This document shows positions 56,066 through 59,488 of a stretch of 64,000 nt of DNA, one piece after another; position 1 is the first letter of the stretch, and each line of letters starts with the position of its first letter. The translations under genes and the position numbers were made by a program. The notes beneath the pieces were generated by a model. That model made no database searches. It had not been told where the DNA came from and saw nothing but the letters and a program-made list of their open reading frames with translations. Source of the DNA: Pontibacter virosus (GTDB lineage: Bacteria > Bacteroidota > Bacteroidia > Cytophagales > Hymenobacteraceae); the NCBI RefSeq assembly GCF_003096355.1, contig NZ_QEKI01000002.1:124001-188000 (forward strand). Direction: 5' to 3'.

Positions 56066-56518
56066 TTAAGCTCTCACCCGGTCCAGGGTATCGCTTAGGT
56101 GCTGCGCCTCCTCTGCTGACAGGTTCTTAAACGTCTCCTCCTCCAGCTGCTTCATCAGGGGGTCCAGGTTGTCGAGCAGATCCATCCCTTTGTCTGTAAT
56201 GGCAATTTCTACCTTGCGTCTGTTCTGCTCGCAAAGCTCGCGGGTCACCAGCCCTTTCAGACGCAGTTTCTCCACAAGCCGCGTGGCATTGCTCATGCGG
56301 TTGAGCATCCGCTCCTGTATGGTGAACAGGTTGAGCGGCTTCCCTTGCTGCCCTCTCAGGATGCGCAAGACATTGAACTGCTGCGAAGAAATATCGTAGG
56401 GCTTGAGCAGGCTGTCGACGCGCGCCATCATCCATTCGCCTGTAAACATCAGGTTCAGAGATGCTTTCTGATAAGGGCTCCTGAACTTGGGCATTTTTAA
56501 TTCATCTTCTAACTTCAT
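56066..56518 (-). CDS. MarR family transcriptional regulator
   Basis: This 150-residue winged-helix protein has the dimerising N- and C-terminal helices, recognition helix region R-M-L-N-R-M-S-N-A-T-R-L-V-E-K-L, and the wing R-R-K-V-E-I-A-I-T-D-K-G. MarR proteins bind palindromes as dimers and release DNA on ligand binding or oxidation. It is divergent from the aminotransferase-GRAS gene, with 179 bases between start codons, the usual arrangement of a regulator and its target. The gap is AT-rich, with no exact palindrome that I can name as operator. Confidence 0.92.
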   Translation of the reverse strand: MKLEDELKMPKFRSPYQKASLNLMFTGEWMMARVDSLLKPYDISSQQFNVLRILRGQQGKPLNLFTIQERMLNRMSNATRLVEKLRLKGLVTRELCEQNRRKVEIAITDKGMDLLDNLDPLMKQLEEETFKNLSAEEAQHLSDTLDRVRA

Positions 56519-56697
56519 GCGAAAAAAATCTATGATTCGAATGCAATAACGCTTGCAATAATTGTATATACAACATTTTCAGATATTTAGTTACTTAAGC
56601 CTTAAGCAGCATTTTTTTAAATTTCATTTTGTTATTAATTATTTATGCTTAGCCCGTATTTAAAACATAATATACATTTTTGAATTGCTATATTGCA

Positions 56698-58881
56698 ATG
56701 AACAACCCGCTCCATTATATTTTTCCCATGGAAAACAAACGCCTCCCTTACCAGGCTGCCACCAATGAAAACCTGTTCGGATCATCTCTACAGGTGCTGG
56801 CCGCCATGCAGCAAGCCATAAGCAGCGTGCACGGTTACCCAACGCCCGACGCGGCTGATCTGCGGCTCGCTCTAGCCAGAAAGCAAGGTGTGCAGGCTGA
56901 CGAAATTATAGTGGGAAGTGGATCGGCGGAGCTAATTTCGCTGCTGATGCGTCGCTTCTGCGGTCACGACAAGGACGGAGAAGTGCTCACCTTCACCCCC
57001 TCCTATCCGCTGTATTGCCAGGAGGCCCGCGCGCTGCGGGTTCCCTGCACGGAGATTCCGCTCACGAGCGGTTACCGGATCGACGTACAAGCTTTCAAGC
57101 GCCAACTGAGGCCTACTACCCGGCTTTGCTTCATTTGCAATCCGAATAACCCGACCGGTACCTACCTGACAAGCACTGAGTTGGAGCAGGTACTCGCATG
57201 CCTGCCGGCACACGTTACCGTGGTGGTGGATGAAGCTTACATAGAGTATGTTACCGCGCCCGATTGTGCCGATGCGGTGAGCATGCTGCCCCGCTACCCG
57301 AACCTGGTGGTATTGCGCACTTTCTCCAAAGCCTACGGACTTGCCTCTGTCCGCATCGGGTACATGATCGCACAACGTCATTTGATCCAGCAGGTACTGG
57401 AGGTGAAACAGCCTTATAATGTTAACCAACTCGCCCAGGTCGCTGCCCTGGCCGCTCTGGAAGACGAACAGTTCCTGTACATGACCCTGCAGGCCACGCA
57501 GGTCGCAAAGGCCAAACTGGAGCGGGCTTTGTATAAAATGGGCGTTCAGTTCTGGCCATCGCAGGGCAATTTTCTGCTGGTGGATGCCGGCGGATACAGT
57601 GCCGATGAAATACACAACTACTTACTCGCAAACCACATCCTGGTGCGTCGCGCCGATCACCATACCCTGCGCCTGACCATAGGCCCCGACGAACATCAGT
57701 TATACCTACTTCATATGCTCCAAGAACTGCTACATCCTTCCCGCGTATACGCCACACAACCGCTGCTGGCACAAGTGCTTGACCTGGGCTACCAGATACA
57801 GGACCAGCCTGAAGAGGCGGTAACTGGTGTAAATGACCTGCTAACGAAGGCGGTTGAGCAGACAGATGCGGAGGGCCGCATTGCGCAGGCTTTTGCACGG
57901 GCCATGGCATTGCGTTGTCAACAAGGCAAAACTGCTGCCTCAGGCAACTTGTATGCCTCCAACTTAGGGGAGATGGACATGATCGCAGCCTTTAATGTGC
58001 TGGTGACAGCCACGCCACTCGTTACATTCGGACACCGCTTCGCCAACCACTCTATATGCGCTGCTATTGCCGGTAAAGCATCGGTATACCTGCTCGATTT
58101 AGGTATAGGCAGTGGTTTGCAGTGGTTTCATTTCATGGAGTTGCTGGCAGCATTGCCCGGCGAGCGTCCTGCTTTGCATCTCACTGGTATCGATATACCA
58201 GATGGCAGAAACGATAACCCGGCATTCAAGCTTCAGGCGACAGGTTCGCGTCTGTCAGCACACGCTGAGCGTTTAGGTCTGAACTTCAGCTATACCTATC
58301 TGGCCACCCGCCTCGAAGATTTCGACCTGCAGTCGCTTGAAATAGCTCCATCCCATACCCTGATTGTGAATGCCGCACTCACTCTGCACCACCTCGCCGA
58401 CGAACTGGTAGCGATACCTGACCAGCGTGATCGGGTGCTGCAACAGATCCGGAAGCTGCGTCCACAGCTGGTAACCTTAACTGAACCAGACTCCGAGCAC
58501 AACCGCCTGGATTTCCTGCCGCGCCTGCGTGAGTCGCTGCGCCACTACTATACCGTGTTTGACGTACTGGACACACTCTTGCCAGCCGACATGCCGGAGC
58601 GCCGCGTCATAGAACAGGAGTTTTTTGGGAGAGAGATCCTCAATGTAGTAGCTTTTGAGGGGAGCGACCGTGTGGAACGCCACGAGCGGCTGGATGCCTG
58701 GCAGCACCGCCTGATACGCAATGGGTTTACGCCCGCTCCATGTCAGGTAACAGCAGCACAGATACACCAGGAGTTGGACCTGCACCCGCAGTTTAGCCTC
58801 GCCCCGCACGCGGCAGGCTATACCTTGCACTGGAAGGGCACTAACATTATAGCGGCTACTGCCTGGCAGGTAGCCGATTAA
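56698..58881 (+). CDS. Fusion of HisC-type PLP aminotransferase and GRAS-domain methyltransferase-like protein
   Basis: This is 727 residues with no signal peptide. Residues about 10-340 form a fold-type I aminotransferase like histidinol-phosphate aminotransferase: N-E-N, G-S-G-S-A-E, C-N-P-N-N-P-T-G, D178-E-A-Y181, PLP lysine K211 in T-F-S-K-A-Y-G, and a late L-R-L-T-I-G arginine. Residues about 345-727 form a complete GRAS domain: a VHIID-like strand V-Y-L-L-D467-L-G-I-G-S-G473-L-Q-W, L-T-G-I-D, N-x-x-L-T-L563-H-H-L, T-E-P-D-S-E-H601-N, the Y-Y-T-V-F-D-V-L-D segment, G-R-E-I-L-N-V-V-A-F-E-G and E660-R-H-E663, and the SAW-like end H-W-K...A-A-T-A-W723. The G-x-G-x-G loop suggests AdoMet binding. 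ATG 56698 is chosen; ATG 56728 is possible. Product unknown. Confidence 0.88.
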   Translation: MNNPLHYIFPMENKRLPYQAATNENLFGSSLQVLAAMQQAISSVHGYPTPDAADLRLALARKQGVQADEIIVGSGSAELISLLMRRFCGHDKDGEVLTFTPSYPLYCQEARALRVPCTEIPLTSGYRIDVQAFKRQLRPTTRLCFICNPNNPTGTYLTSTELEQVLACLPAHVTVVVDEAYIEYVTAPDCADAVSMLPRYPNLVVLRTFSKAYGLASVRIGYMIAQRHLIQQVLEVKQPYNVNQLAQVAALAALEDEQFLYMTLQATQVAKAKLERALYKMGVQFWPSQGNFLLVDAGGYSADEIHNYLLANHILVRRADHHTLRLTIGPDEHQLYLLHMLQELLHPSRVYATQPLLAQVLDLGYQIQDQPEEAVTGVNDLLTKAVEQTDAEGRIAQAFARAMALRCQQGKTAASGNLYASNLGEMDMIAAFNVLVTATPLVTFGHRFANHSICAAIAGKASVYLLDLGIGSGLQWFHFMELLAALPGERPALHLTGIDIPDGRNDNPAFKLQATGSRLSAHAERLGLNFSYTYLATRLEDFDLQSLEIAPSHTLIVNAALTLHHLADELVAIPDQRDRVLQQIRKLRPQLVTLTEPDSEHNRLDFLPRLRESLRHYYTVFDVLDTLLPADMPERRVIEQEFFGREILNVVAFEGSDRVERHERLDAWQHRLIRNGFTPAPCQVTAAQIHQELDLHPQFSLAPHAAGYTLHWKGTNIIAATAWQVAD

Positions 58882-59435
58882 CGCGCCAGTTTGCGGAGGG
58901 CCAGCAGGCAAAGCGCCACAGTACCAGCCACATTGATCTGACCGCTTAGGATCATCTGCTCCACCTCCTGCAAAGGCACCTTCAGGACCTCGATGTGCTC
59001 ACTTTCATCCAAGTCCTGGGCGGCCACTTCGCGCACGTTGCGGGCAATGTAGAAGTAGATTTTGTTTGTGTCTTTGGTTGGGTTGTCGATTACCTGCAGC
59101 ACAGGCTCTATCTCGTTGGTGGTATAGCCGGTTTCCTCCAGCAGTTCTCGCTTCGCCGCCTCTAAGGGGTCTTTCTCATGCGCATCGATCACACCACCGG
59201 GTAGTTCGATGAAGATGTCGCCGGCAGCATGCTTGTACTGGCGCACAAAGAGCACATGTCCATCCTCGGTTATTGGGAAGGTCAATACCACATCCGGCCG
59301 CACACTCACGAAGTAATCGTCCATCTGGTGACCGTTGGGCAGCTCCACATGATCACGGCGAAGAGTGTACCACTTATGATCAAATACAACCTGCGATTTG
59401 AGCGTCTTCCAGCGTTCTATTTCTTTCTTAGTCAT
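58878..59435 (-). CDS. NUDIX hydrolase (ADP-ribose/ADP-sugar pyrophosphatase-like)
   Basis: This is 185 residues from ATG 59435 (upstream in-frame codons add no conserved sequence). It has the NUDIX box G81-V-I-D-A-H-E87-x8-R96-E97-L-L-E100-E101-T-G103; the spacing between the first Glu and Arg is one residue longer than the strict consensus. The preceding strand F-V-R-Q-Y-K-H-A-A-G-D-I-F-I-E-L-P-G-G is typical of ADP-ribose pyrophosphatases. It hydrolyses nucleoside diphosphates linked to another group, with Mg2+. Its stop codon overlaps the convergent GRAS-fusion stop within a shared TTAA. Confidence 0.9.
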   Translation of the reverse strand: MTKKEIERWKTLKSQVVFDHKWYTLRRDHVELPNGHQMDDYFVSVRPDVVLTFPITEDGHVLFVRQYKHAAGDIFIELPGGVIDAHEKDPLEAAKRELLEETGYTTNEIEPVLQVIDNPTKDTNKIYFYIARNVREVAAQDLDESEHIEVLKVPLQEVEQMILSGQINVAGTVALCLLALRKLAR

Positions 59436-59488
59436 TGTTCCGAAGTTATCAGAGCGGAGCAGGTTAGTTGCATACCGCACAAAAAAGA

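Follow-up and report, generated by a model that had tools for sequence, protein, structure and literature searches.

A HisC-like aminotransferase fused to a complete GRAS domain in Pontibacter: a candidate bifunctional enzyme for an amino or keto acid

What did the bacterial ancestors of the plant GRAS regulators do? The question is raised by a gene in a 64,000-nucleotide stretch of the Pontibacter virosus genome (assembly GCF_003096355.1, contig NZ_QEKI01000002.1, positions 124,001 to 188,000 of the forward strand), hereafter the window, whose own numbering is used throughout. In this gene, a HisC-like aminotransferase (AT) is joined to a GRAS domain, a family whose bacterial members were reportedly proposed as small-molecule methylases by Zhang, Iyer and Aravind in 2012. 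A sequence-only reading of the window had suggested that the two halves form one polypeptide and act in one pathway. Here, we describe the fusion, its spread and the recurrent pairing of AT and GRAS genes in other bacteria, and weigh what the protein may do.

One open frame joins two complete domains

The gene and its N-terminal half comprise the following features (L-numbers denote loci).

56698-58881, plus strand: whole fusion gene, 727 amino acids, open frame, with 18 full-length relatives in other genomes
56728, plus strand: alternative start M11; the first ATG in L009, L011 and L012 gives 716-717 amino acids
56758-57732, plus strand: HisC-like pyridoxal phosphate (PLP) aminotransferase domain, about residues 21-345, by Pfam, NCBIfam and fold match
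57229-57240, plus strand: D178 to Y181, each invariant in 19/19 fusions
57328-57330, plus strand: K211, invariant in 19/19 fusions and kept in the GRAS-linked ATs counted (12+2+27)
57670-57672, plus strand: R325, invariant in the same 12+2+27 GRAS-linked ATs

The 727 codons at 56698-58881 (+) are uninterrupted, so that one frame spans both domains, and both are matched by Pfam, as the sequence-only reading had claimed. The residues it had named are all present: VYLLDLGIGSGLQW at 463-476, LHHL at 563-566, ERHE at 660-663, AATAW ending at 723, and K211, D178 and Y181. Its assignment of the halves also held up in profile searches. The AT half matches Aminotran_1_2 (3.5e-54, residues 21-333) and the NCBIfam hisC model TIGR01141, with 285 bits for the whole protein and 288 for the AT half alone (equivalog cut-off, 276.55). 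The C-terminal half matches GRAS (PF03514) at 6.1e-83 and 279 bits against a cut-off of 27, over profile positions 18-374 of 374, and finds DELLA protein 1 by phmmer at 2.3e-41.

Structures were predicted with AlphaFold2, template-free, from the 19 fusions; the placement of the two domains relative to each other is not claimed. The fusion model has a predicted local distance difference test score (pLDDT) of 81.9 and a predicted template modeling score (pTM) of 0.74, with residues 1-23 modeled without confidence and the first helix of the C-terminal half near residues 347-355. The true start may be M11 (56728) instead of 56698; L008 and L010 have a longer start resembling that at 56698. When the fusion model was searched with VIA-align, plant GRAS proteins came first (SHORT-ROOT, Z 42.3 with a root mean square deviation [rmsd] of 2.9 over 373 residues; SCL7, 41.3; SCL3, 41.1), followed from rank 7 by HisC-type chains (3get, Z 39.8; 3ffh, Z 38.3). 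A GRAS-only model built from 66 sequences (pLDDT 93.1, pTM 0.92) aligns to plant GRAS chains with Z 39.8-42.7 over 351-371 residues, covering the alpha/beta core and the alpha-helical cap. The C-terminal half is thus predicted to have the GRAS fold and the N-terminal half the HisC-type fold, in agreement with the sequence-only reading.

A whole-protein search of 59 genomes yielded full-length relatives (52-100% identity) in 19, the P. virosus genome included, all from its genus. A GRAS profile picks out 22 of the 50 genomes of the genus, always within an open frame of 716-774 amino acids, and the same 22 are the ones that match among 204 genomes of the family, leaving by subtraction 0/154 outside the genus. 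The P. virosus genome holds a single GRAS domain, that of the fusion. Beyond the family GRAS is scarce, with matches in 4 of 395 genomes sampled from the phylum, P. virosus among them, and in 1 of 244 genomes of the class of the Rhodothermales genome discussed below. Among the genomes searched, the AT-GRAS fusion is found in one genus only; the fused proteins in named records belong to Pontibacter and Botryobacter. The fusion is patchy within the genus (22/50 genomes), and its surroundings are mostly conserved.

By the NG86 method, comparison with five close relatives gave nonsynonymous divergence (dN) of 0.061-0.078 and synonymous divergence (dS) of 0.87-1.32 for the AT half, and dN of 0.070-0.095 and dS of 0.92-1.26 for the GRAS half. 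The dN/dS ratio is below 0.1 in both halves for these five pairs, and 0.18 and 0.12 for a sixth, more distant pair. Judged by these ratios, purifying selection keeps both halves. The fusion is neither chance nor a local frame accident, since the frame is intact in 22/22 genomes, both halves align in 19 and dN/dS is low.

Active sites of the two halves

The catalytic site of a fold type I PLP aminotransferase (Lys, Asp, Tyr) is complete in 19/19 fusions, and the sequence-only reading was right about K211, D178 and Y181. We take K211 to be the PLP Schiff-base lysine and D178 and Y181 to be PLP-binding residues; R325 is presumably the family's carboxylate/phosphate-binding arginine. Together with R219, these residues are kept across the linked ATs counted, which number 12 fused to, 2 upstream of and 27 downstream of a GRAS domain. 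Position 317 is R in 12/12 fused ATs, R and G in the two upstream ones and L in 26/27 downstream ones.

Conservation in the GRAS half was assessed over 74 bacterial GRAS domains (73 named loci and the window; seven near-copies excluded).

57811-58869, plus strand: GRAS domain, residues 372-724 by Pfam, also in the AlphaFold2 models, Z 38-43 to plant GRAS
58096-58116, plus strand: S-adenosylmethionine (AdoMet) loop D467-L-G-I-G-S-G473; G469, G471 and G473 in 74/74, D467 in 67/74
58192-58194, plus strand: D499, acidic position after strand 2; D or E in 74/74
58387-58392, plus strand: H564-H565, candidate metal ligands; both in 74/74
58483-58500, plus strand: E596-P597-D598-S599-E600-H601, end of strand 5; E596 in 74/74, H601 in 69/74
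58669-58686, plus strand: R658-V-E660-R-H-E663 loop; R658 and E660 in 74/74 and kept in three plants
58852-58866, plus strand: SAW-like end A-A-T-A-W723, from the sequence

The signs of a class I AdoMet methyltransferase are present, namely a glycine-rich motif I after strand 1 and an acidic end of strand 2, where position 499 is presumably the ribose-binding one. The intact AdoMet motif of the sequence-only reading, DLGIGSG, has its three glycines in every bacterial domain of the set. Invariant in 74/74 are Y419, G469, G471, G473, Q475, E540, N558, H564, H565, E596, R609, F642, R658, E660 and W668. The 19 aligned fusions share 220 invariant positions, among them K211, D178, Y181, R219, R325, D467, G469, G471, G473, H564, H565, E596, R658 and E660.

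After the plant GRAS proteins and a wide gap, the highest Z scores of the GRAS-only model in VIA-align are those of the AdoMet- and metal-dependent methyltransferases CysG and BelI (17.5-17.8, rmsd 2.6-2.7 over 206-211 residues), tied with CmoA and YecO. Lower matches include EgtD (up to 16.5), CurJ (15.7) and histamine methyltransferase (15.2). In CysG/BelI, which methylate the C1 carboxylate of malic substrates, a catalytic calcium is bound via His122-His123-Asp191, according to the available part of PMC11408123. Because the His-His pair is common to CysG/BelI and the bacterial GRAS domains, the latter would be expected to hold a metal at H564-H565, perhaps with E660 as a candidate third ligand.

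ATs accompany many GRAS domains across bacteria

Named genomes were scanned with an alignment of ten GRAS domains, which gave 88 relatives, of which 80 were kept; the scan required an intact AdoMet or LHH motif, and bacterial GRAS domains with neither would be missed. Profiles for both domains divide the 80 loci into 18 with a fused AT, 2 with an AT upstream, 28 with an AT downstream on the same strand and 32 without an AT (of these 32, 21 are flanked by at least 1.5 kb of sequence on either side, and the other 11 lie close to the end of a contig). A separate AT gene thus adjoins GRAS at 30/80 loci, and an AT is fused or adjacent at 48/80. For scale, the P. virosus genome has six AT-like places in 4.88 Mb, the fusion included. 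Measured from the GRAS stop, the first ATG of the downstream AT falls at -40 to +120 nt in 26/28 cases and at 407 and 1919 nt in the other two. At L064 (Rhodothermales) and L065 (Myxococcota), the AT gene ends and the GRAS gene begins within a shared ATGA, in the gene order of the fusion, so that one small frame change could have made the fusion. The 30 separate adjacent ATs, besides the 18 fused ones, greatly strengthen the case for AT and GRAS working in a common pathway. With the same enzyme class linked genetically to GRAS whether fused, upstream or downstream, the choice of substrate narrows to an amino or keto acid.

Relation to plant GRAS proteins

The bacterial set was compared with four plant sequences taken from solved structures: DELLA1, SCL3, RGA and SCL7. 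The sequence-only reading had stated that plants lost the AdoMet motif, and the glycine loop is indeed altered in all four, positions 469-473 reading GLKQG in DELLA1, DASEP in SCL3, SMNQG in RGA and GIVQG in SCL7. Position 499 is also altered, being G, H and G in DELLA1, SCL3 and RGA, respectively. At position 565 the same three have T, T and K, and in SCL7 H564 is replaced by Y. Each of the four plants therefore lacks one His of the pair, and the LHHL motif does not stand as the GRAS hallmark it had been taken for; presumably it is an ordinary class I methyltransferase motif. Binding of AdoMet (SAM) or S-adenosylhomocysteine (SAH) to GRAS domains was not seen by calorimetry, as far as the accessible text of PMC5873383 goes.

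When DELLA1, SCL3 and RGA were run with phmmer against the 74 bacterial domains, the same 15 came first every time with 96-163 bits: 12 fused proteins, L064, L065 and a Chloroflexota protein, L066, which has no AT nearby. The next best reached 72-80 bits. In a 41-row tree that includes SCL7, which followed an earlier quick tree of 77 rows, the plants, the fused proteins, the AT-upstream proteins and L066 split from the other bacterial GRAS domains with 100/100 support. Within this group the sister of the plants is left undecided by five approximately unbiased (AU) tests (p 0.293-0.356), and one of the trees tested puts plants outside the fused/upstream/L066 group. On this phylogeny, plants may lie inside the AT-linked side of the tree or be its sister. 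The fused and AT-upstream side is the bacterial group in which to seek ancestral GRAS chemistry, because the tree places plants on its side. The fusion itself, with its AdoMet pocket intact, is a hint that an enzyme acting on amino-acid-like molecules may be the ancestor of the plant regulators.

Proposed function and alternatives

We propose that the AT and an AdoMet-dependent methyltransferase act on one small alpha-amino/alpha-keto acid, making the fusion a bifunctional protein; as a reading of sequence comparisons, this stands at about even in our estimate. The AT half would remove the amino group from an amino acid, giving a keto acid. A metal, probably divalent and coordinated by H564-H565 and a third residue, for example E660, would bind this keto acid, which would be methylated by AdoMet placed at D467-G473 and D499. 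The AT would then restore the amino group, yielding a methylated amino acid. The order of steps proposed as the likeliest is that known for StnR/StnQ1, an AT and AdoMet C-methyltransferase cascade on tryptophan described in the available part of PMC4742848. In SgvM, a metal-bound keto acid is poised for methylation, with the metal held by H244 and H296, according to the accessible portion of PMC10502145. Among the first 50 Foldseek matches of the GRAS model, the alpha-keto acid C-methyltransferases SgvM and MrsA stand at ranks 15 and 46 (TMq 0.33-0.39), which speaks for the proposal, as do the VIA-align scores of CysG/BelI; the absence of SgvM and MrsA from the best 50 matches listed by VIA-align for that model excludes nothing. 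Also in its favor are the two domain profiles, both far above cut-off, the conserved catalytic and AdoMet-motif residues, and the AT fused to or beside GRAS at 48/80 loci. We infer AdoMet and metal binding, a shared substrate, the step order and a preference for C- over O- or N-methylation, and C-methylation itself, argued by analogy, is a tentative choice that is more probably wrong than right. At five actinobacterial loci without an AT (L121-L125), 2-oxo acid dehydrogenase genes (E1 alpha and beta) lie less than 6 kb from GRAS in 5/5 cases: three loci have them upstream on the GRAS strand, the remaining two downstream on the opposite one. They are a weak pointer to a keto acid; the GRAS domains concerned are near-copies that count as about one lineage, examined because a recurrent cluster pointed there.

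Several results weigh against this proposal. The nearness to CysG/BelI is not exclusive, as CmoA (17.5) and YecO (17.4) tie with them in Z. Foldseek leaves the same gap after plant GRAS but ranks CurJ, NovO, SgvM, PsoF and CmoA next, and a CysG entry comes in 24th. By profile, the resemblance of the GRAS half to non-GRAS methyltransferases is weak (arsenite methyltransferase, 5.6e-5; SgvM, 0.23), and CysG/BelI were not listed up to an E value of 10 in the profile search. CysG/BelI act on a carboxylate oxygen, and the word "aminotransferase" is absent from PMC11408123. The 32/80 GRAS loci without an AT indicate a methyltransferase not always in need of a linked one, and inspection by eye of the 25 largest flank clusters, a few of them Pfam-tested, brought up no other conspicuous enzyme gene near the AT-linked loci. 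In AT trees, the fused, upstream and downstream ATs fall into three groups within the HisC-like enzymes, L111 being the one downstream AT that does not conform (the incomplete L085 was omitted). The AU test does not reject a single origin of all linked ATs (p 0.299), and a tree with fused and upstream ATs constrained to one clade had a better score than the unconstrained tree (p 0.684), so that AT trees and AU tests leave one or several origins of the pairing undecided.

Other functions of the GRAS half have to be set against this evidence. It could be a metal-dependent carboxyl O-methyltransferase, with the AT making or consuming the amino or keto acid that is esterified, a possibility we rate as unlikely. 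It draws on CysG/BelI having the highest Z outside GRAS, tied with CmoA/YecO, and on the common His-His pair, whereas partner ATs are better documented for C-methyltransferases of keto acids. The Z scores of EgtD, a histidine-specific methyltransferase, and of histamine methyltransferase would fit N-methylation of an amino acid or amine. However, EgtD ranks below CysG in Z and is metal-independent, and the invariant His-His pair suggests a metal; we rate N-methylation as less probable than esterification. Slightly further down we place a GRAS half that binds AdoMet without methylating, as a sensor regulating the fused AT and an early step toward the plant regulators. Plant GRAS proteins are regulators for which no SAM binding was seen in the available part of PMC5873383, and two-component genes lie near many bacterial GRAS genes. 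Nevertheless, the glycines and likely catalytic residues are kept in 74/74 domains, and a protein that only sensed AdoMet would have no need to retain the His pair, E596 and E660.

The remaining alternatives concern the AT half and the frame. A TIGR01141 score above the equivalog cut-off would suit a second histidinol-phosphate aminotransferase with GRAS as unrelated cargo, and the sequence-only reading had offered an imidazole-phosphate-like substrate. That suggestion finds no support: the same genome has another hisC between hisD and hisB that scores higher than the fused AT (363 bits), and R317, one of the two arginines typical of HisC, is replaced by L in 26/27 downstream ATs. The neighbors of the fusion are not his genes, the fused AT has its own branch and the GRAS pairing recurs. 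With the other hisC sitting in the his operon, a HisC role was set low, and we regard it as very improbable. Least credible of all is that internal initiation makes two separate proteins from the frame. An ATG, GTG or TTG occurs at aligned residues 335-386 in 17/19 genomes, but no site has a start codon in all 19, two genomes have none and the frame is unbroken in 22/22; this candidate was set low for want of a conserved start codon near the junction.

The proposed bifunctional enzyme lends itself to experiment. Expression of one protein suffices for assays with PLP, AdoMet and metals. A ready target for mutation is the His-His pair, which every bacterial domain of the set keeps and each plant sequence tested has lost in part.

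Gene neighborhood and a possible signaling context

Two genes flank the fusion in the window.

56066-56518, minus strand: divergent MarR-family regulator gene (Pfam MarR, 7.1e-8), present in 13/19 neighborhoods
58878-59441, minus strand: convergent NUDIX hydrolase gene (Pfam NUDIX, 1.6e-16), present in 17/19 neighborhoods

The divergent MarR gene had been pointed out by the sequence-only reading, and its Pfam match bears this out. The metabolite-controlled expression that it had also suggested would be conjectural: no inverted-repeat operator for MarR was found in 56500-56740, and a promoter and terminator scan gave signals no more than in shuffled sequences. In five of the six neighborhoods lacking MarR (L057, L058, L059, L062 and L063), a pirin-like gene lies upstream of the fusion, accompanied in four of the five by a nitroreductase-like gene, both recognized by eye.

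Farther afield, a sensor-kinase-type cluster of proteins and fragments, two members of which were Pfam-tested, touches 21/62 loci. LytTR response regulators occur at 9/30 Bacteroidota loci against 1.07 expected from same-genome density, about eightfold (Poisson, 1.9e-6); the count is of a homology cluster with one Pfam-confirmed member, and the P value is post hoc and ignores shared descent. The 30 loci were hand-picked from 37 non-Pontibacter Bacteroidota loci, and the seven omitted hold no member of the LytTR cluster. The kinase and LytTR genes stand up- or downstream of GRAS in either orientation, which suggests that this neighborhood has been kept through rearrangement. At L068, L074, L078, L079, L082, L096 and L103, sensor-kinase-type and LytTR-type genes lie less than 6 kb from GRAS or GRAS-AT (Pfam-checked at L068 only). 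It is conceivable, and in our view improbable, that in many Bacteroidota GRAS and AT together convert a primary metabolite in two steps into a small, methylated, amino-acid-like signal read by the neighboring kinase/LytTR system, and that plant GRAS proteins descend from this AT-linked methyltransferase branch, a substrate-binding enzyme having turned into a signal-reading regulator (DELLA, SCARECROW).

Other neighbors recur by eye. A small protein of about 130 amino acids lies beside GRAS at L071 (5367-5747), L085 (5457-5843), L091, L095, L097 and L116, in two copies at L091, L095 and L097; it appears STAS-like, and the one tested had no Pfam match. In L102 (Myxococcales), the GRAS gene sits between protein kinase and SpoIIE phosphatase genes, again a signaling setting. 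Runella GRAS genes without an AT (L112, L113 and L118; L029 is arranged alike) adjoin a phosphotriesterase-like hydrolase gene in the same order.

Comparison with known systems

The analysis addresses what bacterial ancestors of the plant GRAS regulators did. No link between AT and GRAS appears in titles and abstract openings of the open-licence papers listed, which is no proof of absence in print, and no paper on the GRAS domain and Pontibacter was found there. Relative to the literature read, and with an earlier mention of the AT link possible, the genus-wide fusion, the AT pairing in three arrangements, the plant nearness and the invariant His-His pair read against CysG/BelI are new.

The GRAS half belongs to the proposed bacterial GRAS methylases; the present analysis adds the AT fusion and pairing, the subgroup nearest to plants and the His-His site. 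That proposal is cited in PMC5012262, PMC4279901, PMC5332381 and PMC6232258, and the available parts of these papers name no substrate. The plant GRAS proteins (DELLA, SCL3, SCL7, SCARECROW and SHORT-ROOT) are of the same Pfam family and match the predicted fold with Z 38-43 over 351-373 residues. However, they have no aminotransferase, and the AdoMet loop, the acidic position 499 and one His of the pair are changed in the sequences aligned. HisC shares with the fused AT the fold, the PLP residues and both arginines; unlike HisC, the fused AT lies away from the his genes and on a separate tree branch, with the other hisC in the his operon.

CysG/BelI have the His-His pair in common with the GRAS half, with Asp191 as the acidic third ligand where E660 is the candidate here. 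The match covers only the core (model residues 85-383 of 383), and CysG/BelI contain no AT domain. The StnQ1- and MarI-type methyltransferases are, we assume, not GRAS proteins. The StnR/StnQ1 and MarG/MarI cassettes have the same activity pair, a PLP aminotransferase and an AdoMet methyltransferase; unlike in the fusion, the two activities reside on separate proteins, encoded in antibiotic clusters together with a cupin epimerase, as described in the accessible part of PMC4742848. As in the SgvM/MrsA/MarI class, a partner AT is present for GRAS, fused or adjacent at 48/80 loci.

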